The notes beneath the pieces were generated by a model. That model did not search any database. It was not told the origin of the DNA and saw nothing but the letters and a program-made list of their open reading frames with translations. From Nitrospirales bacterium LBB_01 (GTDB taxonomy: Bacteria; Nitrospirota; Thermodesulfovibrionia; Thermodesulfovibrionales; Magnetobacteriaceae), in NCBI GenBank assembly GCA_004376055.2, contig CP049016.1:434001-498000 (forward strand): a stretch of 64,000 bases of DNA, written 5' to 3'. Shown piece after piece: positions 5,707 through 37,358 of this stretch (position 1 is the first letter of the stretch; each line of letters opens with the position of its first letter). Position numbers and translations under genes: made by a program.

Positions 5707-6411
5707 CTACAATATAAAATCTTTTTCAAAAAAATTCTGGGTTAGGTGATAGTATTTCTTTCCAACATACGAAATAAGCCCTTCATTTCTCCATTTATCA
5801 ATCACATGAGTGACAGTCTCCCGTAGGAGCCCTGTCATATCTGCAATATCCTGATGAGTGAGCTGAATGTCTAATGTGATGCCGTCTGCTGCATGTATGT
5901 CAAACTTACTCACTAACTTTAAAAATAACAGTGTAACTCTTTGATGAGCTTTGTTATAGGTTAATCGTTCAATTAGATCATTTGCTTCTCGTACCTTAGA
6001 GCATAATTCTGTCATCACACAGTAAAGAAACTTTGGGTGTGAATTAATCAATGTCAGAAAATCATTTTTAAACAAAATAGCAACAGCAGAATCTTCAAGT
6101 GCACGCACTGTTGCCACTGTTGTTATGTCATCAATCAGAGATAATTCACCGAAATGTTCCCCCGTTGTTCTTATCGCAAGAGTTACGTCTTTTCCATCGC
6201 TGTTTGTGATATTTACTTTAAGTGTTCCACTTATGACCATATACATATATTGGTTTTCAATATCCTGGTGAATAAACACTTCATTTTTTTTATATTTTCT
6301 TATTACAATTTTTTCAGCGATTGGTTTTAAATCTGTGTCGTCTAAAACAGACAATAGCGGCACTTTACGAAGTAGAACAAGTGCATCAATTTCATTTTCA
6401 ATTTTCTTCAT
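5707..6411 (-). CDS. Crp/Fnr-family transcriptional regulator
   Basis: A 234-residue regulator with an N-terminal cyclic-nucleotide-binding-type beta barrel (about 15-135, with GEHFGELSLIDD as the phosphate-cassette-like stretch) and a C-terminal winged helix (about 150-225; LTHQDIADMTGLLRETVTHVI is the recognition region). It lacks the N-terminal Cys cluster of Fnr, so Fe-S oxygen sensing is unlikely. The cassette does not carry the full Arg-Ser/Thr signature of cAMP-binding CRP, so the ligand is unknown. It is convergent with the oxidase operon and is a candidate regulator of it by position only. Confidence 0.88.
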   Translation of the reverse strand: MKKIENEIDALVLLRKVPLLSVLDDTDLKPIAEKIVIRKYKKNEVFIHQDIENQYMYMVISGTLKVNITNSDGKDVTLAIRTTGEHFGELSLIDDITTVATVRALEDSAVAILFKNDFLTLINSHPKFLYCVMTELCSKVREANDLIERLTYNKAHQRVTLLFLKLVSKFDIHAADGITLDIQLTHQDIADMTGLLRETVTHVIDKWRNEGLISYVGKKYYHLTQNFFEKDFIL

Positions 6412-9442: not shown

Positions 9443-11800
9443 ATGTTTGCTAAATACGCTGTGAGAGTCTCATCTGTTGTGTTGGTCTTATTGTTTTTTC
9501 TGACAGCAGTATCCGAAGCCAAAATGTATAGATGGAAAGATAAGAGCGGCACAACTCATTTCACGGACTTTCCACCTACAGAGGAGGAACCTGCAACACC
9601 TGATGAGGAACTTCTGCCAACTCCTTCGCCTCCAAAAAAACCTGCAGTAACTGCACCCGGACATGACACAAAAGTTATACCAAAACAAGATAAAACAGCC
9701 GCACCAATCACACAACAACTAAGTAGTCCAACCCCTGCTCCAACTCCAACACTAACACCATCACCGTCTCCAACTCCGACCCCAGTTGTTACAGCCTCAG
9801 TCCCGCCGCCATCTCAGAATAAGCAGCCCTCAGCAACTCCGGTTCAAAACATACAGCCGCAAAAACAGCCCGTTAAGAAATTTCCTGTTACAGTCGGAAA
9901 AACGAAAATAACTCCAAAATCTAAATACGCACTGTTTAAAAACTTTGAAATCATATCCATAAAATACCCGATGTTTATGACGGTTGCCCCAATTGTAATA
10001 TTTCTGTTAGCCATGTTTTTTGGCTATTCACTCTTTAGGATTGCAAAGCTCCTTGAGATACCTGCTGTATTAATAGCTCTTATTCCTGTTGTCAACTTCT
10101 ACACGGTTGTTATTGTTTCGGGAAAGCCTATGTGGTGGATGGCTCTTTTGCTTTTTCCGTTAACGCTGCCGTATGCTTTTACGTCTTCATACATGTCGCT
10201 GGCTGAAAACCTTGGACTTGATAGAAAAGCTGGGCTTGTTCATGCAGTATCTTATGTATTTTTAGGAATATCCTTTGTTTGCATAGTGCTGCTTCCGGTC
10301 TCTTTTTTACTAACAATCGCAGAATCTGTTTTTTTGCTTCTCGGTACACTTGCGTTTTTTTTAACACCAGAGTATCTGATATTTTTATCAGGCAAGAAAC
10401 GTAAACAGGATGAAATGTTCGCTGAGAGATTTGCTGATGGGCAGCTCCCCTCCGAACGAAAAGCATGGGACGATGTATCGGATGAGTCAACTGTCGATGT
10501 GGCTGCTGTAGGAGCCGGTTTGGCAGCCTCCCGTGGTTTTTTAGGGAAAGATTTCTCTTATATAGACGACACTGTTGCTGTATATAGCGATGACCAGGAT
10601 GAGGCTGTAACTTTAGAACAGCCTGCACCGGCAGAAGATGAGGAAACTCTCACTATCAACAAAGGGGAGGCCCTCGGGTTTGAAGTTGTAGAGGATGACT
10701 CCTCCCATGTTGTGCATCGGTTAGATTCAGATGAGGACTCCGCTCTCAGAACCGATGATGAGGAGTATGAAACAATCACCGGCATCGGCAATACAGATGT
10801 ATCAGATGACAGACTGGACGCACCCTCTGATTTGACCGCATCTGATGACGAATTTAAACTTGTTGACGATGAGGGCAGTGGTGATTTTGATCTTTCACCT
10901 GAGCTGGACTCAGACCTTGTTCTGGAGCAGCCATTAGATGAGACAAATGTAGAGAATCAAAAACCTTACGAAGATGCAGAGGTGGATTTATCGTCATCGC
11001 TTGAAATAGATTTGGGTGATGAGCCGCAAGTTGTAAAAGATGAGCAATCCAGCTACAGCGAGGATGATGACTTTGAGATTAAAGATGAGGATTATGACTA
11101 TTCTGATGATTCCACTGTTGTTTTAGGCCAGGATATAGAGGACTTTAGAATTGATATAGATGACAAAGCACAGATGTCGGTGTCTGAGAAGTCAGATAGT
11201 GTCATAGAGCCTGATTTTGAACTTTCCCTTGACGATGAGCCGAGACTTAGTGATTCAGCAGTGATAGCTACTGAAGAAAGCGGTGTTCCTGATTTAGACG
11301 ATATTGCCGACCTTGAACTTTCTCTTGACGATGAGCCGAGACTTAGTGATTCAGCAGTGATAGCTACTGAAGAAAGCGGTGTTCCTGATTTAGACGATAT
11401 TGCCGACATTGAACTTTCTCTTGACGATGAGCCGAGACTTAGTGATTCAGCAGTGATAGCTACTGAAGAAAGCGGTGTTCCTGATTTAGACGATATTGCC
11501 GACCTTGGGCTTACACTTGATGATGGCAGTGATGCCGGCCCAATTCTTATAGATGAGGAGGAGACGATAGTGCCCTCCAAGTTGTCTTTTGAAAATTATG
11601 ATTTATCGCTGAATGACCCAACTATGGAGCTTATCAGTGGCAGCGAAATAGCACCTGATGAGACTTTACCGGATGTTCCCGTCTTGTCAGCTGATTTAGA
11701 TATTGCCGGCATTGATGACATATCAACCGATAATACGCCGACTCAGGAGGACAGCAGCAGCCGTGGTAAAAAGAAAGGCGGTAGAAAGCCGCGTGGTTAA
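9443..11800 (+). CDS. DUF4124 membrane protein with acidic repeat domain
   Basis: A 785-residue protein. The signal peptide (1-26) leads into a DUF4124-type segment, MYRWKDKSGTTHFTDFPP (about 28-45), usual in envelope proteins. A Pro/Thr-rich linker (about 48-145) follows, then a membrane region with several helices (about 174-316). The rest (320-785) is highly acidic, rich in Asp/Glu/Ser and probably disordered, ending in a basic tail, GKKKGGRKPRG. It contains three nearly identical 32-residue repeats (see separate entry). A strong ribosome-binding site, AAGGAGG, precedes ATG 9443. The function is unknown; the layout suggests an envelope scaffold. Confidence 0.75.
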   Translation: MFAKYAVRVSSVVLVLLFFLTAVSEAKMYRWKDKSGTTHFTDFPPTEEEPATPDEELLPTPSPPKKPAVTAPGHDTKVIPKQDKTAAPITQQLSSPTPAPTPTLTPSPSPTPTPVVTASVPPPSQNKQPSATPVQNIQPQKQPVKKFPVTVGKTKITPKSKYALFKNFEIISIKYPMFMTVAPIVIFLLAMFFGYSLFRIAKLLEIPAVLIALIPVVNFYTVVIVSGKPMWWMALLLFPLTLPYAFTSSYMSLAENLGLDRKAGLVHAVSYVFLGISFVCIVLLPVSFLLTIAESVFLLLGTLAFFLTPEYLIFLSGKKRKQDEMFAERFADGQLPSERKAWDDVSDESTVDVAAVGAGLAASRGFLGKDFSYIDDTVAVYSDDQDEAVTLEQPAPAEDEETLTINKGEALGFEVVEDDSSHVVHRLDSDEDSALRTDDEEYETITGIGNTDVSDDRLDAPSDLTASDDEFKLVDDEGSGDFDLSPELDSDLVLEQPLDETNVENQKPYEDAEVDLSSSLEIDLGDEPQVVKDEQSSYSEDDDFEIKDEDYDYSDDSTVVLGQDIEDFRIDIDDKAQMSVSEKSDSVIEPDFELSLDDEPRLSDSAVIATEESGVPDLDDIADLELSLDDEPRLSDSAVIATEESGVPDLDDIADIELSLDDEPRLSDSAVIATEESGVPDLDDIADLGLTLDDGSDAGPILIDEEETIVPSKLSFENYDLSLNDPTMELISGSEIAPDETLPDVPVLSADLDIAGIDDISTDNTPTQEDSSSRGKKKGGRKPRG
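11219..11506 (+). repeat. Three 96-bp in-frame tandem repeats
   Basis: Units at 11219-11314, 11315-11410 and 11411-11506 encode the same 32-residue block, starting ELSLDDEPRLSDSAV and ending DLDDIAD(L/I). They are nearly identical at DNA level, including third codon positions, so the expansion is recent. A divergent half unit (GLTLDD) follows. Confidence 0.95.
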
Positions 11801-28156: not shown

Positions 28157-30706
28157 TTACTTTTCAATTAATTTAGAGCGAGGAGAAAAATATAGACGAA
28201 AATTCAGACTTGCTATCCACTCGGTGTAATCAGCTGACTTATTCATCTCAAACCCGCCTCCAACCGCTGAATATTTAGTAACGAGCTTAAGTCCCTGCAG
28301 GTTAAAATAGTATCCAATTCCTTTTTTGGTATCCCCTTTGTAAACATTGCCGCCTGCATGGTAATCTTCAGGATAGGGAAACATCGGAGCATCATCATTT
28401 TGAGCATGAAAATAACCGGCTGAGAGCTGGCCGTCAATAAAGTAATCCTTGCACTGGTTTACTTGAAGGTGTGCAAACGGCCCAAACATGTAATAAGCAC
28501 CAGGGCTGTAGTACCCGCCGTATCCATGAGTGTAAAAGCCGGAGTTTTTATCAAAATGCATGTCTGTCAGAGTTATTCCTGTTGAAAAGTTTGTTATCTC
28601 AGCCATAAATGTGGCGCCCAAAGAGATATTGCCGTGATATGCAAAGTTATCAAGCACATCTACTCCATTATAAGAGTCGTATCCCCCCTTTATTGATAAC
28701 CAAACAGGCTTGAAAGGTGTAACAATAATCTCTCCCTCAACACCGGTCTTCACCACCCGTCCCCATTTAGCACTGCCGTAAGGGTCTTTTAATCCAACAT
28801 AAGACAGTATGGACTCCTCAATAGCTGTCCTGTGAACGTTAAAATTCCAGTGTTTTGTCCCTAAGAGAGCGTCAAATGTTACTGTTGGATCAATTGTGCC
28901 GTTAAACGGAGTTGTGCCAAGTTTAATGGCATAGTGAAGCTCTCCTTCTTTTTCCAATTTAACCTCAGGTGTATAAACATAGGCTGTAGTCATAAGAGAG
29001 TTTACAGGGTGTAACACATTTCCAGAATAGGTGCCCGTAAACGGGATATCCGGCGCAGTGCCCGAAGATAGCTGCTGGTAAGTGGCAGATACAGTTATTT
29101 TTTTATCTGGAGCTATTGTAAAAGAGTATCTCATAGGGGTTGAATATTCTCTAAGTTTAGAAAACCCGGCCTCACCGGTTTTAACCCTCATAGAAAACGA
29201 TTTTGAAAATACCGATTTTTCCTGGTTATAATAACAAGAATCTGAACTGCAATAAGAGTAAGCTGCTCTAATGGTTTCACCCCTATCAAAAAAATAATCT
29301 CCTGATATCTTTTTAAGTTTTTCATCACCAAGAGTCAAAAGCATATTGGCAAATGATTTTGCTTTTTCTACATCACCGGCGTCATCATAGGCTGATAAAA
29401 TCACCTGAGCCGTTGCCGGCTCCTTTTTAGTCTCAAACACAGAAAGAAACACAGGCAGTGCATCGTTAATGCGTCCTTGTTTATATATGCTCCAGGCTAA
29501 AAGAGTTTTATCATCGGCATCGCCGCCACTTATCTCTATAGATTTCAAAGTAAACTCTTCAGCCTCTTTATAGTGTTGCGCATCAAAAGCCTCAGATGCC
29601 CTGTCTTTATATATACCGGCTTTGATGTCTTTAAAATCTGCTACAGATTCATACTTTTCTATTAACTTCAGAGCCTCGTCAATCCACTTTAACTTGACAA
29701 GCGTGTATATCAGACCTGAAACATTTGTGGCGATACCGGGCTTCATAGCTTGAAGTTTTGAAAATCTCTCATAGGCGCTCTCGTAGTTTTCTTCGTGGTA
29801 AGCGTGCCACGCAAGCGCAGAAATTGCATCAGTGTCATCAGGGTTTATAGATAGGATTTTTTTTGCGATAAACTCAGTGTTATTCTTATCGTCGTTAAGC
29901 TCATCGTGCAGCAGGGCAAGTTTTATTTCAACAAGTTCTTTAGTATAATCCTCAGGAAGTCTGTCCCGTTCCTCTTCCTCTTCAACAATCGCAATAATGT
30001 CTGCTGTTGGCAGCAATTTGTTAAGCGAATAAAACACACCCTTTCGGATTCCCCATTCTTTTGGACAGGATTGAAGCAGTGCCTGAAAGATTTCCAGAGA
30101 CTCAGTTTTTTTATCTCTTTGGTTTAATGCTTCACCGGCATCAAAAAAAGTGCCAGGAAGAGCACATTTCTTTAAGTAATTTTGATGCGATTTTGTAAGA
30201 TTTAAGAGCTCATCAACATTGCCGTCATTTATTGCTGTCTTAACCTGTTCGGGAAAGAGCGCATTGTCTATTATTTCTTGAATTTTTTTTCGGTCTTTAG
30301 CCTCAAGCATGCTAAGATATGAGGAGGCTTTATCAAAATCCTTTCTATCAATCATCACCCATACAATATCTGAGACAACATCCTTTACCTTATAACTCTT
30401 TGCAAGGAGCATCTCCAAAATGGAAACAGCTTCGTCAGTTTTCCCAAGTTTTATATAACAACGGGCTAAACCTAAGTTGGCGTCAAGCACGCTTGGCGGG
30501 AAGTTCAGTGCATACTTATAGAGATCTATAGCTTGTTTGTAGTCGCCTCTTTCGTAATACTGCCAGCCCTTATAAGTATAGAAAGAGCCGTCGTCTTTTT
30601 TTTCTTCCTCCACTTTCGGCAAATCACTGATAATCTCTGCATATGTTTGGCTCTGACACAAAAAAACGACGACAACCGCAATAAGCAGTGTTTTTACAGA
30701 TTTCAC
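28157..30706 (-). CDS. bcsC: TPR/beta-barrel cellulose export protein, BcsC-like
   Basis: An 849-residue protein with a signal peptide (1-23), TPR-like helical repeats (about 40-470; YERGDYKQAIDLYKYALNFPPSVLDAN begins them), and a C-terminal region rich in amphipathic beta strands (about 510-849) ending in a Phe-containing strand region. It is shorter than enterobacterial BcsC (about 1150). It is last gene of the operon, overlapping bcsZ by 4 bp. It is expected to form the outer-membrane pore that exports the glucan. Confidence 0.82.
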   Translation of the reverse strand: MKSVKTLLIAVVVVFLCQSQTYAEIISDLPKVEEEKKDDGSFYTYKGWQYYERGDYKQAIDLYKYALNFPPSVLDANLGLARCYIKLGKTDEAVSILEMLLAKSYKVKDVVSDIVWVMIDRKDFDKASSYLSMLEAKDRKKIQEIIDNALFPEQVKTAINDGNVDELLNLTKSHQNYLKKCALPGTFFDAGEALNQRDKKTESLEIFQALLQSCPKEWGIRKGVFYSLNKLLPTADIIAIVEEEEERDRLPEDYTKELVEIKLALLHDELNDDKNNTEFIAKKILSINPDDTDAISALAWHAYHEENYESAYERFSKLQAMKPGIATNVSGLIYTLVKLKWIDEALKLIEKYESVADFKDIKAGIYKDRASEAFDAQHYKEAEEFTLKSIEISGGDADDKTLLAWSIYKQGRINDALPVFLSVFETKKEPATAQVILSAYDDAGDVEKAKSFANMLLTLGDEKLKKISGDYFFDRGETIRAAYSYCSSDSCYYNQEKSVFSKSFSMRVKTGEAGFSKLREYSTPMRYSFTIAPDKKITVSATYQQLSSGTAPDIPFTGTYSGNVLHPVNSLMTTAYVYTPEVKLEKEGELHYAIKLGTTPFNGTIDPTVTFDALLGTKHWNFNVHRTAIEESILSYVGLKDPYGSAKWGRVVKTGVEGEIIVTPFKPVWLSIKGGYDSYNGVDVLDNFAYHGNISLGATFMAEITNFSTGITLTDMHFDKNSGFYTHGYGGYYSPGAYYMFGPFAHLQVNQCKDYFIDGQLSAGYFHAQNDDAPMFPYPEDYHAGGNVYKGDTKKGIGYYFNLQGLKLVTKYSAVGGGFEMNKSADYTEWIASLNFRLYFSPRSKLIEK

Positions 30707-31749
30707 AAATCGCTGCCCTTTTTTACAAGAAGATACAGAGTGTTGGAGTAGTAATTGTCCTTTTCGTTTGCGAGCTTATCTTGAGCTTCTTTGGATAATT
30801 TGGCGCCTAACTCACCGTCTCCAGATTTTGAATAGGCTTGAGCATAGATGGCATAAAACCCGGATGGTGCGGTATCTGTTGAGGCTTTAGTGGCATTGTC
30901 TGATAGATCAATTTGAGCCGCAATAGAACCGGCTTGCTTATATATTTTTGAAATCTCCTTAAGACCGTCAGGGTAAGGAGTCCGTTTGTCCAACAAAAGG
31001 TAAAGAACCGTCCTTATCGCATCATAGCCAAACACCTGGGGATTTTCAGTGCTAACCTGAATTCCCTTGCCGTTTAGGGTAACCCAATCGGCAGGAAGCT
31101 TATACTTACCAAACTTACACTGCTCTAAAATAGAAATAGAGTCTTTATATGTTTTTTCCCAAAATGCTTTATCATCAATGGTTGCAAACAATTTGTATGC
31201 TGGAGGGATTATGTATGATGGGTTTAGGGTAATAGCATCGTTTTTTGTAAATCCATAGTAACCGGGCAAAAGTACGTTCATTCCCTGCCATTTAACTGCA
31301 AGATTTACTCTTATTGCCTCTACTATTTTTAATCCGGCAGACTTGTACGCATTATCTTTCCACTTCTCCGCTGCCTTAATAAGCGCAAATGCTATTAATA
31401 CATCGCCATCTGTGGCATTGTTGTAGTCAATGACATCCCACTTATCGTTTGCCCGCTTGCCCCAACTCCACACAGACAAGCCGTCTTTTCTAACCATCAG
31501 ATTATTTTTTGTCCATTTAAAGAGTTTGTCAAATGCTGCCCTGTCATTGTATAAAACGCTAAGGAGCATACCGTAGCCCTGCCCTTCGGAGTGGCTTATC
31601 TGCCCCTGATAGAAGTCAACTATGCGGCCGTCAGCCTGAATAAAGGTGGATTTGTACTTTTCCCAAAGCTCTTTATCGTCTGCGCCGGATAAACCAGAAA
31701 ATAGCATTGAGAGAATTACGCTAACTACTACTATCCGAATTCTTACCAA
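30703..31749 (-). CDS. bcsZ: Cellulase of glycoside hydrolase family 8
   Basis: A 348-residue periplasmic endoglucanase. After the signal peptide (1-22), E55 in SEGQGYGM is the expected proton donor; D114 and D116 lie in NATDGDVLIA. It trims glucan during export in bcs operons. It overlaps the end of bcsB by 29 bp and bcsC by 4 bp. Confidence 0.92.
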   Translation of the reverse strand: MVRIRIVVVSVILSMLFSGLSGADDKELWEKYKSTFIQADGRIVDFYQGQISHSEGQGYGMLLSVLYNDRAAFDKLFKWTKNNLMVRKDGLSVWSWGKRANDKWDVIDYNNATDGDVLIAFALIKAAEKWKDNAYKSAGLKIVEAIRVNLAVKWQGMNVLLPGYYGFTKNDAITLNPSYIIPPAYKLFATIDDKAFWEKTYKDSISILEQCKFGKYKLPADWVTLNGKGIQVSTENPQVFGYDAIRTVLYLLLDKRTPYPDGLKEISKIYKQAGSIAAQIDLSDNATKASTDTAPSGFYAIYAQAYSKSGDGELGAKLSKEAQDKLANEKDNYYSNTLYLLVKKGSDL

Positions 31750-33883
31750 CGTTCAGCCTCCTTTTTCTATATGCTTTTAATATAACATATAAAGTAGAGC
31801 CTATCACAGTCACAGCTAATCCAATGGCCACATAATATAGCCACGGGTAAACGTACAAATACGCATCAAGCCTTGATGTTACACCAGTCTTGCCTGAAAA
31901 GTATTTTTTCCCGGTGCTTAGAGAGATTACCTTATAATCAGGCGGGGTGAGGTCAATGATGTTGAGGTCTCCCTTGCAATCTCCCTGAACATTAGAATCT
32001 AACAGTGCTTCGGAAACCTTAAAGACGTCTTTTGTTGCTGCGGCAGTCAGCAGTATTGCTGTTTTTCCTTGAGCATACGGCGATTCAAATTCCATAAGAG
32101 CGCCTTTGTTTTCACTCATATTGACCATTTGCTTACTTAGAGCAATAGTTATCTCATCACCCCAGCTTTTTACTATAGGATATGGTATTACAGACTTGGC
32201 TGTAAGTTTTATCGGAGTTATCTCTTTGATATTTTCTGGAATTGTACCGACATCGCCAATCACCATAATATCACCTTTCCATGTTTTGGGGTTAGTATAA
32301 GTAAACTGTGTAGCAAACAAAGGATATCCATTTTTCTGAGTGATAAAACCAATTAAGTTAAAAGCTGATGCAATTGTATCAAAGTTGTTGTTTGTCAGAT
32401 ATATCAGTGATTCATAACCGTCTGGCCATCTTGTAATTGGAAAACCGCTGCTCATAAAAAGCTCCAGTTTTGGCAAATCTACGATATGTGGCATTGCCGG
32501 AAACTTCATAGAGGATTTCCCGAATATGGTTAAAAAAAGATTTCTAAACTGAGGCAATTCACAATTTTTAGTGACTGAAGGTACCAGCACAGGCACAAAA
32601 GTAAGCAGATTTGCCCCCACTTTAAACATGTGTGTAGGTATGTTTATTCTGTAATCCTCAATAATTCCACCACTGGGATTATCAAGACGTATTGCAGAAA
32701 CACTTACGTTGTTTATCAAAATATTCAAAACTGAATCTGACCTCATCCCTGCACCGTATGAGTACGTCAGAAAAACCTCGGCATATTGATTAGGTTTTAT
32801 AAAAAAGTCCGGCGACAAACGAAAAGAAACACTTTTTGACATAGAGTTAAATCCTATAAAGGTAAAGTCAGTAAAATCCATTGTCTTAAATGTGTATTGT
32901 TTGTTTGGAACAATAGTTTGTCTGCCTCCGTAGAGTGTGATGTCAGGCAGGGTTAGCTCAAGTATAGTAGTTTCGCTGTCATCCGGGTAAGGATATGAAA
33001 TGATAGCCATCGTCTCTGCTGCCAGCTTCACATGGTCTGCATTCTTACCGGATATAATGAGAAGTGCGTGCTGTGCATCTTCTTTTTCCCCTGTGGGTAA
33101 ATTCATAACCTTAAGAAACGGCCCCTTAATTTCAGTCAAGGTTATTCCCTTTTGTTTAAGATAGTCTGTTACAAAGCTGCTTTCACCCACAATTACATTG
33201 TCAACCCCGGGTTTGATTTCTTGAGAGACGGTAAAAACAACCTTCTTATAGTCAAACTTCTTGGCAATGCTTGAGGCTACTATGCCTGCATTTGTAACCA
33301 TATCCTCTTTTGTGCTTGAAACAACTATGTTAATCTCACCATAGGGCAAAAGTTTTGGGTCAAACAGGAACTTATCAAGGGAGGACAGTTTCTGAGGTAT
33401 GGGACGAAGCGTGTATTCCAGCTCCAAAAAAGCCTGGTCAAGCCTAAGCGTGGTCCAAAGTTCTTTGGCGCAGATATCCTCGCACTCATTGGCATAGTGC
33501 TGGGCTACTTCAAAGGTCAGTCGGTTATAACCAGGTTCAAATAGAAGTTCAGGTAAGACTATTTTGGCGTTTTTATCAGGAAACTGGGGAGTGAGAGTAA
33601 ACTGCTCTACGGGAAAACCGTTTAGTTTAACGACCATACGGGATCTGCTGGCTAAGAGTGCTGTTGAGTTGGTGTAGCTGAAGTCAAGAACAGCTTTACT
33701 TAGTTTCCATCTCTCTGGAATTGCAATAGAGAACTCAGCTGTTGCGCCCAAACACTTAAGATCAAGCGCTTTAACGGGGGCAAGTTTATACAAGGGGATT
33801 TTCATTACCTCAGCATCGGCAAATTGCAAAAAAAACATACATAAGCACATCGGGATAAAAGCTAAAACGCTCTTTGTTTTCAT
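31721..33883 (-). CDS. bcsB: Cellulose synthase regulatory subunit BcsB
   Basis: About 720 residues: signal peptide, paired carbohydrate-binding/flavodoxin-like repeats, and a C-terminal transmembrane anchor (YPWLYYVAIGLAVTVIGSTLYVIL). YGAGMRSDSVLNILINNVSVSAI is characteristic of the family. I chose ATG 33883 because a signal peptide (MKTKSVLAF) begins there; an ATG at 33952 overlapping the bcsA stop would add 23 residues. It guides the nascent glucan through the periplasm with BcsA. Confidence 0.9.
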   Translation of the reverse strand: MKTKSVLAFIPMCLCMFFLQFADAEVMKIPLYKLAPVKALDLKCLGATAEFSIAIPERWKLSKAVLDFSYTNSTALLASRSRMVVKLNGFPVEQFTLTPQFPDKNAKIVLPELLFEPGYNRLTFEVAQHYANECEDICAKELWTTLRLDQAFLELEYTLRPIPQKLSSLDKFLFDPKLLPYGEINIVVSSTKEDMVTNAGIVASSIAKKFDYKKVVFTVSQEIKPGVDNVIVGESSFVTDYLKQKGITLTEIKGPFLKVMNLPTGEKEDAQHALLIISGKNADHVKLAAETMAIISYPYPDDSETTILELTLPDITLYGGRQTIVPNKQYTFKTMDFTDFTFIGFNSMSKSVSFRLSPDFFIKPNQYAEVFLTYSYGAGMRSDSVLNILINNVSVSAIRLDNPSGGIIEDYRINIPTHMFKVGANLLTFVPVLVPSVTKNCELPQFRNLFLTIFGKSSMKFPAMPHIVDLPKLELFMSSGFPITRWPDGYESLIYLTNNNFDTIASAFNLIGFITQKNGYPLFATQFTYTNPKTWKGDIMVIGDVGTIPENIKEITPIKLTAKSVIPYPIVKSWGDEITIALSKQMVNMSENKGALMEFESPYAQGKTAILLTAAATKDVFKVSEALLDSNVQGDCKGDLNIIDLTPPDYKVISLSTGKKYFSGKTGVTSRLDAYLYVYPWLYYVAIGLAVTVIGSTLYVILKAYRKRRLNVGKNSDSSS

Positions 33884-33948
33884 GTTAGATCGGCATCTCT
33901 TTACTTGTAACAACTGCGACATAATATAGCAAATATTTGATAGATGTG

Positions 33949-36234
33949 TCAAGCATTATTTCTGCTTAGTTTCAAATATTTTAGATTTTTTTTCATTGAC
34001 TGAAAAAGCATCTGAGAAACCACCACAATGCTCTTTTTAGTGCCTGATACACCCAGTTTTAAGAGGATGAGGATTATACTTAAAGCGTTTGGAGACTTTT
34101 TTCTTTTGTTCCAGAAATCTACCCATCTTTGGCTGTCTCCATAGACTAACCCTACGACGTTTTTAAAAGCCTCCTCATTTGAAACAATAAACTCACAACC
34201 GCAAAGGATATGGTCAGATCTATTGAATATTCTCTGAATCTTTGATCGTACAGAATACTGGTTTCCGTAGCTGTCTGTAAGTTTGATTATTATCTCATCA
34301 AGCTGCTTTAAAGGAAGCGATAGATTAAGCACAACACTAGCGCCGGAGAGGGAAAGGTCAATGATTTTACCATCGAAAGGTTCATTTGATTGCGGCAAAT
34401 AAACGCTTGCGTTATAGTTTGCCCACAAACGATGATGGCGGCGTACTTGACGGCGCTCAAAAAACGCTCCCAATGAGGCCATAGCCAATATTACGTTAAA
34501 GATGCTCCATGCTGCTGTGACAGCGATAACATCTCTGTACAAAGGAAACTCAACCCACCTTATAATGGCTACTGGCACGGCTATGAACATTATGGAGGTC
34601 ATAATTAAAAATGGAACCGCCATTTTACTTAATGATTCACCCTCGGATGTTTGTCCTTTAGGCGTCACCTTAAACGATGGGGAACGGGGGTTTAACACAA
34701 CGCCAAGCACCGCCGGAAACAGATATATTGACTGTACGCTTTCATACAAATCCGAGAAGAATGGCCATCTGTACTTTCCTGAAATATAATCCGTAAGAAT
34801 TAGCGAACACACCAAGTGCGGCAGTGCATAGATTAGCACCTGAGAGGTGGAGGCAAAAAATATCTTAAGGTTAAGCAGTAAAAAAGCCGCAGGAGCCACA
34901 TAGAAAATTACTCTTGATATTCCAAAAAACCAAAAACCGCAGTCATTGATATAGCAAATCAGTTGGTAGAATTTAAGTCCTTTTATAAATAGCGGATTTT
35001 TCAAAATAAAAATCTGTACCATCCCCTGTGCCCAGCGGCTTCTTTGCAAAATAAAATCATCAAACGTTTCAGGGGAAAGCCCGCAAACCATCGGGCGGCC
35101 ATAGTAGATGCTGTTATAACCTTTGCCATGAAGCGACAGAGCGGTCTCGGCGTCTTCTGTAATCGTCTCTCCAGAGATGCCGCCAACCTCCGTAAGATAT
35201 TTCCTTCTCATAATAGCCGCAGAGCCGCAAAAAAATGAAGCATTCCAAAAATCAAGCCCCGGTTGCCCCCCGCGGTAAAACATCTCGTTTTCAGCGGGCG
35301 CATCTGCAAATGCGTCAAGGTTTTTCTCAACCGTGCTTGCATTGATAAAAAAGTGAGGAGTTTGAACAAATGCAAGTTTTTCGTCTTTTAAGAAATATCC
35401 AACGGTGTTCATTAATATGTCTTTTGAGGGAACATGATCGCAATCCAGAATCAGTATGAGGTCGGAGCTGGTATGTCCAAAAGCGTGATTAAGATTGCCA
35501 GCTTTAGCGTGGATGTTTCGTTCTCTTGTGATGTAACCGGCGCCATTTTCCTTAGCCATTCTTCTGAATTCATAATGACGCTCCCATGACGCCCCAGAAA
35601 TCTTAGGATTAATCCTTCTTGCCAAAGTGCCGCCGTCGTCAAGCACATAGACGTTAAGTTTATCTTTGGGGTAATCTACCTGAAGTGCTGCAATTACCGT
35701 TACTTTGACTAAATCTAACGGTTCGTTGTACGTTGGAATGAATATATCAACTGAGGGATACGAAGAAGTGTCAGCCGGCAGCGGCACAGGTTCATTTTCT
35801 GTTGGCCAGAGGCTTACAAAAAGCGATAAGAAATGTAGTGTAATACCATAAAGCTCAGCCAAATAAAGCAAAGCCATCCCTATAAAATCAGATAAATCCG
35901 TGTATATCAGCGTTTCAAAAGTCCGCCAGTATAGGTAGCGCAGTGTTATGAGAGAAGCTATGAGCATAAAATGGATACGCAACGGAGGAAATTTAAACTT
36001 TTTAATGCGGTTAAAAATTATTAGTATTGCTATCAATCCCCAACTGACTATAGCTTGCGCATAAACCGGCAAAAGCAAGCCGATAAGATGAAAGTACAGC
36101 AAAATTGCTGCGCCCAAAGCTACATATACGCCAACAGTGTAACCTCGCCTTGTTTGAACAAAGTGTCTGTGTATGAAGCGCTTAATTGGCGTCCTTATCC
36201 ACTCCGTGATGTATAGTGCGCTTGGGTTGATCAT
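33949..36234 (-). CDS. bcsA: Cellulose synthase catalytic subunit with PilZ domain
   Basis: A 761-residue inner-membrane GT2 synthase. Active-site motifs are complete: DDG (199-201), DCD (264-266), TED (359-361) and QRSRW (397-401), between N- and C-terminal helices. The C-terminal PilZ domain has RRQVRR (594-599) and DLSLSG (626-631), the two c-di-GMP-binding signatures, so activation by c-di-GMP is expected. The 5' end overlaps the cyclase gene by 53 bp. Confidence 0.95.
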   Translation of the reverse strand: MINPSALYITEWIRTPIKRFIHRHFVQTRRGYTVGVYVALGAAILLYFHLIGLLLPVYAQAIVSWGLIAILIIFNRIKKFKFPPLRIHFMLIASLITLRYLYWRTFETLIYTDLSDFIGMALLYLAELYGITLHFLSLFVSLWPTENEPVPLPADTSSYPSVDIFIPTYNEPLDLVKVTVIAALQVDYPKDKLNVYVLDDGGTLARRINPKISGASWERHYEFRRMAKENGAGYITRERNIHAKAGNLNHAFGHTSSDLILILDCDHVPSKDILMNTVGYFLKDEKLAFVQTPHFFINASTVEKNLDAFADAPAENEMFYRGGQPGLDFWNASFFCGSAAIMRRKYLTEVGGISGETITEDAETALSLHGKGYNSIYYGRPMVCGLSPETFDDFILQRSRWAQGMVQIFILKNPLFIKGLKFYQLICYINDCGFWFFGISRVIFYVAPAAFLLLNLKIFFASTSQVLIYALPHLVCSLILTDYISGKYRWPFFSDLYESVQSIYLFPAVLGVVLNPRSPSFKVTPKGQTSEGESLSKMAVPFLIMTSIMFIAVPVAIIRWVEFPLYRDVIAVTAAWSIFNVILAMASLGAFFERRQVRRHHRLWANYNASVYLPQSNEPFDGKIIDLSLSGASVVLNLSLPLKQLDEIIIKLTDSYGNQYSVRSKIQRIFNRSDHILCGCEFIVSNEEAFKNVVGLVYGDSQRWVDFWNKRKKSPNALSIILILLKLGVSGTKKSIVVVSQMLFQSMKKNLKYLKLSRNNA

Positions 36235-37036
36235 CGGGCGCTGAAAACATATTCATTCCCTTTACAATCATAAAAACAACGAGAAACGTAAGAACAAGAT
36301 AAACTATTAACTTTACGGCATTGGATTTCTTCTTTCCCGGCTGCACAGTAGCAGCGTCAGCAGCCTCGTCTTTTTCTATTTCAGTTGTGTTCCAGTAGGC
36401 TTTGTATATCTTAAACTCACCGGATTTTCCCTTAAGAGACGTTGTCTTAACAAACCTGCATAATATCTCGTCCTTAGTCTCTCCGGCAGCGATCTTTGCA
36501 GCCACATGCTCTCTCATAGCATTGTACGTTTCCTCGGAGATATAAATCTCACTGGGATTGGCCTGACTTTCAAACCTTGACGCAACGTTAACCACATCGC
36601 CGAATATGTCGCTTTTCTCCACTATACCCTGTCCAGTATGTATGCCGATTCGTATAAGGATGGGAACTACGGATTTCTTTTCAAGATTAAACGCATCAAT
36701 CGCTCTCTGCATAGCTGCGGCTGACTCTACCGCATCAGAGGCATCCTCAAAATAGGACATTGTGCCGTCGCCCATAGTTTTTACAAGAGTGCCATTATGT
36801 TGAGATATGAGTGGAAACACAATTTCGTTGTGCTGTTTAAGTATTGTTCTGTGAAACATATCGCCGTGCTGTTCGGCCAGTGCGGTTGAGCCTTTAATAT
36901 CGGTAAACATCACTGTTATGATTTTTACAAATTTATTTTTGAATAGCTCATCAAGCTTCTCACGCTGCGAAATTATGTCTTCTACGCCAAACTGCTCTGC
37001 CGAACCCTCCGCCGGCGCACCGTCTTTCTCTTCCAT
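36182..37036 (-). CDS. Class III nucleotidyl cyclase with C-terminal membrane anchor
   Basis: A 284-residue protein. The cyclase homology domain (about 35-215) has metal aspartates D46 (MFTDIKGST) and D90 (KTMGDG), GIHTG, and the N150/R154 transition-state pair in FGDVVNVASRFE. All catalytic positions look intact, so it should be active; cAMP is likelier than cGMP, but specificity is not proven. A single helix near residues 244-262 anchors it by the tail, an unusual order. It is first gene of the cellulose operon and overlaps bcsA. Confidence 0.87.
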   Translation of the reverse strand: MEEKDGAPAEGSAEQFGVEDIISQREKLDELFKNKFVKIITVMFTDIKGSTALAEQHGDMFHRTILKQHNEIVFPLISQHNGTLVKTMGDGTMSYFEDASDAVESAAAMQRAIDAFNLEKKSVVPILIRIGIHTGQGIVEKSDIFGDVVNVASRFESQANPSEIYISEETYNAMREHVAAKIAAGETKDEILCRFVKTTSLKGKSGEFKIYKAYWNTTEIEKDEAADAATVQPGKKKSNAVKLIVYLVLTFLVVFMIVKGMNMFSAPDDQPKRTIHHGVDKDAN

Positions 37037-37095: not shown

Positions 37096-37124
37096 ACGAT
37101 AACATAAACCCGAAAATACGTCAA
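37096..37124 (-). promoter_or_regulatory. Promoter of the cyclase-cellulose operon
   Basis: On the minus strand TTGACG (37124-37119), a 17-bp spacer, and TATCGT (37101-37096). The predicted start near 37089 leaves a leader of about 53 nt. The -35 overlaps the left target duplication of the adjacent element. Confidence 0.6.
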
Positions 37125-37132
37125 GTTTCCTT

Positions 37133-37349
37133 CAGGGCAAACGCATTAGAGAAAAAAGCAGCAAAAGACTTCTCTGTTGCAAGGCAGAATTTTTAGAGAA
37201 AAGGACTGGATTCCCGCTCGTAGGCGGGAATGACAAGGAAGGATATGTCTTTTTTTTGTCATTCCTGCGCAGGCAGGAATCCAGTTTTTTAGCGAAGCTA
37301 CACTGCATTGGCAATATATTATTATTTCCTGTGAAATGCGTTTGCCCTG
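37133..37349. repeat. dRS3-like small mobile element, copy 3, with 15-bp inverted ends and 10-bp target duplication
   Basis: 217 bp, ended by perfect inverted repeats CAGGGCAAACGCATT (37133-37147) and its complement (37335-37349). AAGTTTCCTT flanks both sides (37123-37132 and 37350-37359). The core has ATTCCCGC...GCGGGAAT and ATTCCTGC...GCAGGAAT palindromes. Inside its right part lies a GCTACACTGCATTGGCAAT stretch similar to the right end of copy 5, so it may be a composite. The CAGGG tips and 8-10 bp duplications recall ISAs1-family ends, tentatively. It occupies most of the 395-bp gene-free interval 37037-37431. Confidence 0.88.
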
Positions 37350-37358
37350 AAGTTTCCT

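Follow-up and report, generated by a model that had tools for sequence, protein, structure and literature searches.

A predicted tail-anchored adenylyl cyclase as a recurrent member of a cellulose synthase operon in Nitrospirota

The cellulose synthase (bcs) operon of Nitrospirales bacterium LBB_01 begins with a gene for a predicted class III adenylyl cyclase, and we consider it moderately likely that this protein is a dedicated, tail-anchored cyclase of a Nitrospirota bcs subtype, coupling cyclic AMP (cAMP) to cellulose synthesis. The locus lies in a 64,000-nucleotide stretch of contig CP049016.1 (positions 434,001 to 498,000), referred to below as the window and numbered from its first letter. 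On the minus strand the order is the cyclase gene (36182..37036, 284 amino acids), bcsA (33949..36234, the cellulose synthase catalytic subunit with a PilZ domain), bcsB (31721..33952; PF03170, 349.5 bits), bcsZ (30703..31749, a GH8 endoglucanase; PF01270, 242.9 bits) and bcsC (28157..30706, an outer-membrane export protein with TPR and BCSC_C domains; PF05420, 175 bits). BcsA lies above the CelA equivalog cut-off (TIGR03030, 829.6 versus 699 bits), and with bcsB, bcsZ and bcsC beside it the cluster is a bcs operon, with the cyclase directly upstream of bcsA. Neither class III cyclases nor bcs operons are new, and BcsA is the textbook effector of cyclic di-GMP (c-di-GMP); the literature searched, in which subscription journals were thinly covered, gave no earlier account of a bcs operon that includes a class III cyclase. 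A preliminary description of this DNA had put such a cyclase, with all its catalytic residues and a tail anchor, at the head of the cellulose operon, and had proposed that cellulose output is tied to a second nucleotide signal; these points are borne out by what follows, the last as the natural reading of a recurrent cyclase with cAMP as its predicted product beside a PilZ-bearing BcsA.

The family assignment is clear: the protein matches PF00211 with 83 bits (cut-off 21.9) over residues 38-180, which places the catalytic domain at 36497..36925. The metal-binding aspartates (D46 and D90) and the transition-state residues (N150 and R154) are all present and are invariant in six bcs-linked homologues, as are the adenine-type specificity residues K86, D143 and S153. 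Guanylyl enzymes carry Glu and Cys or Gly at the adenine-specifying Lys and Asp positions, and K86 and D143 align with the K and D of Ma1120 that are altered in its KDA to EGY mutant. The adenylyl-type residues speak against a guanylyl cyclase, and the predicted product is cAMP. By sequence the best solved relative is the Ma1120 adenylyl cyclase (4WP3, E 9e-20); a Foldseek search with a structural model of the cyclase likewise returns Ma1120 as its top match, along with the adenylyl cyclases Rv1900c and CyaB (E down to 4e-9), and on this model the cyclase homology domain fold is assigned. The ratio of nonsynonymous to synonymous substitution rates (dN/dS) between congeners is 0.095-0.107, which shows purifying selection, and this low value together with the conserved linkage described below means that the gene is not a chance open reading frame (ORF). 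It has also been considered that the cyclase domain is inactive, or its activity unused, and that the protein serves BcsA as a membrane scaffold or chaperone. The close coupling of the two genes, through which the cyclase may be co-produced with BcsA, would suit such a role, but the catalytic and adenine-specifying residues are unchanged across six proteins whose identity falls as low as 43%, and we regard it as very improbable.

The nearest paralogues of the cyclase domain, in proteins of the same Nitrospirota family, share its N-terminal helix but differ in what follows: they have FHA or CHAT output domains in place of the anchor, and they do not lie beside bcs genes. At one Nitrospirota locus (L009) Pfam finds a class III cyclase joined to a CHAT domain of the protease type, and two more (L012 and L030) are judged likewise from sequence. 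Elsewhere, in G115, a phosphatase-like gene is followed by a kinase-like gene and then by a cyclase (L104 1122-5340; assigned by eye except for the cyclase), a cluster hinting that class III cyclases receive input from Ser/Thr phosphorylation.

Gene order across the phylum carries much of the argument. The arrangement is not peculiar to LBB_01: two congeners (G002 and G003) have the same one, with a tail-anchored cyclase upstream of bcsA, and two genomes from a different family of the same order (G068 and G073) have a cyclase that is 52-54% identical, bears the same tail anchor and stands directly before bcsA. In these two an extra gene separates bcsA from bcsB (L057 10127-11122; L058 5447-6508), and that of G068 matches PDB entry 7D62 (PggH, which we take to be a pGpG hydrolase) with an E value of 5e-86. 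Other members of the window's family also carry PggH-related genes, but its own genus does not. Outside the class, G179 has the order bcsA-bcsB-bcsZ-bcsG-unassigned gene-cyclase, so that the cyclase comes last. Since position in the operon shifts while membership is kept, the cyclase has the look of a component dedicated to Bcs. When 395 Nitrospirota genomes were searched with a profile built from the linked cyclases, homologues aligning over the full length, tail included, appeared only in G000, G002, G003, G068 and G179. All five belong to the 19 genomes that have BcsB, and each carries the cyclase within a few kb of bcsB on the same contig (p 1.5e-7 per genome; about 1e-4 when counted as three lineages). 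A second profile, run on an overlapping draw of genomes, repeated the linkage picture, and neither profile found a tail-anchored full-length homologue away from bcs genes in the Nitrospirota sample. A scan of genome contigs with a three-sequence alignment returned one locus, G003's own, the patterns being genus-specific. A tblastn search of plasmids gave only cyclases below 36% identity among the matches listed, and no cellulose genes were seen in two plasmid cyclase neighbourhoods, a third fetched record being unannotated. One member of the genus, G001, has neither bcsA nor the cyclase: a SpoIIE-like phosphatase (by eye) stands beside its copy of the kinase gene that lies upstream of the cyclase in the window, where the cyclase would begin, and the contig breaks off 1.9 kb beyond the kinase.

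The junction between cyclase and bcsA needs some care. The preliminary description had given the two genes 53 bp of shared coding sequence (36182..36234), and as ORF arithmetic this is correct. In the congener G003, however, the bcsA frame is interrupted within the overlap by a TAG at codon 12 (L068 about 9910-9953; G003 is a draft genome, and the TAG could be a sequencing error), and all six differences between G002 and G003 in this stretch are synonymous in the cyclase frame but non-synonymous in that of bcsA. Only the cyclase frame is thus constrained here, so the overlap is best taken as part of the cyclase gene; well past the overlap, bcsA shows ordinary coding constraint. The true start of bcsA may lie further downstream: an ATT at 36186, adjoining the stop codon of the cyclase, has AAGGA ahead of it. 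There is no overlap in G068 or G073, in which gaps of about 28 bp and about 8 bp separate the cyclase from bcsA. The close coupling of the two genes stands. Upstream of the cyclase is a candidate sigma-70-type promoter (37096..37124, minus strand; TTGACG-17-TATCGT, by consensus match), whose -35 box is conserved in two congeners in an alignment of three, so the cyclase is probably transcribed first in the operon. Between the kinase and the cyclase there is also a mobile-looking element of about 217 bp (37130-37352) that is absent from G002 and G003. It is bounded by perfect 18-bp terminal inverted repeats (CTTCAGGGCAAACGCATT) and contains an older repeat family of about 120 bp. The genome has about 15 copies of the element that are nearly identical (96-100%).

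The cyclase has a single C-terminal membrane helix at about residues 240-258 by hydropathy (36263..36319; residues 239-262 in the model), followed by a tail of about 25 residues. In all six homologues the helix has a hydropathy of 2.6-3.2, with a Lys-rich cytosolic flank on its N-terminal side. One C-terminal helix after a soluble N-terminal domain is the pattern of a tail-anchored protein, predicted here from sequence, and we read the helix as a tail anchor that leaves the catalytic domain on the cytosolic side, because cytosolic ATP is needed. The outer tail contains a conserved 'KRT' motif, in which R273 and T274 are invariant in the homologues, even where no overlap constrains the DNA, and this conservation would fit contact with membrane parts of the Bcs machinery. 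Such a tail raises the possibility that control runs the other way, with the helix sensing the state of the Bcs machinery (c-di-GMP-bound or exporting) and relaying it to the cell as cAMP. The single anchor with its short conserved outer tail, kept also where the overlap is absent, would be suited to that role, and the genome offers several cyclic mononucleotide (cNMP)-binding kinases as possible receivers, but any contact with BcsA or BcsB is hypothetical; we give this reverse direction a rather low probability. About as low is the one we give to the cyclase being a true subunit of the synthase complex, in which helix and outer tail would touch BcsA and BcsB and in which c-di-GMP binding or export would gate cAMP, received by cNMP-binding Ser/Thr kinases. 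If it were true, polymer secretion itself would become a second-messenger signal.

Control of BcsA by c-di-GMP through PilZ, as the preliminary description assumed, agrees with the sequence. The PilZ domain occupies BcsA residues 596-698 (45.9 bits), and its RRHHR and DLSLSG fit the RxxxR and D/NxSxxG motifs, so that the c-di-GMP site looks intact. Since the motif is kept, the cyclase would be an addition to c-di-GMP control and not a substitute for it; we reject replacement of that control by the cyclase. The genome has nineteen GGDEF matches, which at the level of predicted genes show a full c-di-GMP network besides cAMP signalling. The latter is broad, with five PF00211 matches above cut-off and 29 matches to the cyclic nucleotide-binding (CNB) domain; among the CNB proteins read, none was seen to link CNB to GGDEF or EAL. 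The Crp-like protein at window position 5707, once suggested as the sensor, is unlikely to be a cAMP receptor: a CRP-type receptor has both the Glu and the Arg of the cassette, and this protein reads FGELSLIDDITTVAT where the cassette (FGE..x..PRSA) needs the phosphate-binding Arg, which is absent. At least six other CNB proteins in the genome keep the phosphate-binding cassette. Three of these are Ser/Thr kinases with a C-terminal CNB domain (L113, L119 and L129; domain order confirmed by Pfam for L113), possible bacterial cAMP-dependent kinases. Another locus of this genome, L130, encodes a complete acetate kinase with a CNB domain fused to it (PF00027 + PF00871).

Phylogeny bears on how the linkage arose. 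The cyclase-linked BcsA proteins form one clade (support 99/99), apart from the GGDEF-linked, Thermodesulfovibrio-type BcsA of the f9 genomes. This clade (f1, f12 and f25) mixes classes and conflicts with taxonomy, so the cassette has probably moved horizontally. This could suggest that the cyclase is a general cAMP enzyme, joined to bcs in a single event and retained through a shared promoter and joint transfer of the whole cassette, with no tie to cellulose, an account that would also suit the breadth of cAMP signalling in the genome and a receptor outside the operon. The linkage nevertheless persists through the shift from first to last position and the addition of genes, the tail motif is conserved, and the phylum sample gave no full-length tail-anchored homologue away from bcs genes; we therefore think a mere passenger unlikely. 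Several points weigh against a dedicated cyclase all the same. Co-transfer of the cassette could preserve linkage without functional coupling, and six genomes in three lineages are a small sample. The tree of cyclase domains fits a single origin of the bcs-linked cyclases, with weak support (43/89). Substrate choice is a prediction from residues, and the fold model has moderate confidence (pLDDT, the predicted local distance difference test score, of 66). Finally, there is no cNMP-binding protein among the genes of the bcs operon.

Because no operon gene binds cNMP, a dedicated cyclase would most likely signal to cNMP-binding proteins encoded elsewhere, for example the Ser/Thr kinases with CNB domains. 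We infer the following sequence of events. The cyclase would be transcribed first, and then probably translationally coupled to bcsA; its C-terminal helix would hold it in the inner membrane, with, on the predicted topology, the catalytic domain in the cytosol beside the PilZ domain of BcsA. There it would dimerise and, as K86, D143 and S153 predict, make cAMP, which would act as a second input or a read-out alongside c-di-GMP. The cyclase would raise cAMP when cellulose is made or is to be made.

Known systems offer partial parallels. Ma1120 (4WP3), Rv1900c and CyaB share the catalytic domain and the substrate-specifying Lys and Asp. They are soluble or differently regulated enzymes, and to our knowledge none has a tail anchor or a link to cellulose genes. 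The closest parallel in gene order is found in Thermodesulfovibrio sp. N1 and T. aggregans, which have a type 3 bcs operon with a PAS-GGDEF gene upstream (PMC5165239). These bacteria belong to the same phylum and likewise have the order bcsA-bcsB-bcsZ-bcsC, immediately preceded by a signalling gene of the cyclase type, but there a diguanylate cyclase makes the activator of BcsA, whereas here the enzyme is a class III mononucleotide cyclase and BcsA falls in a different clade. A GGDEF gene occupies the same slot upstream of bcsA in three of the f9 genomes read. In Xanthomonas campestris, XC_0250 makes cyclic GMP and the linked XC_0249 (CNB-GGDEF) is its receptor (PMC3770947); that pathway also joins a class III cyclase to c-di-GMP and biofilm, but in LBB_01 the residues are of the adenylyl type, and the cyclase is linked to the synthase itself and to no CNB-GGDEF gene. 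In Komagataeibacter, cellulose is under Crp/Fnr-type control (PMC6559022).

If the cyclase is indeed dedicated to the operon, cellulose output would be coupled to cAMP at the synthase itself and not only through distant, Crp-type control of transcription. The cyclase and bcsAB make a compact, clonable module for the study of cross-talk between cAMP and c-di-GMP. The cyclase has been kept in at least three Nitrospirota lineages and in two operon positions, and by its presence a subtype of bcs operon can be recognised, in which cellulose output may answer to two nucleotide signals instead of one.

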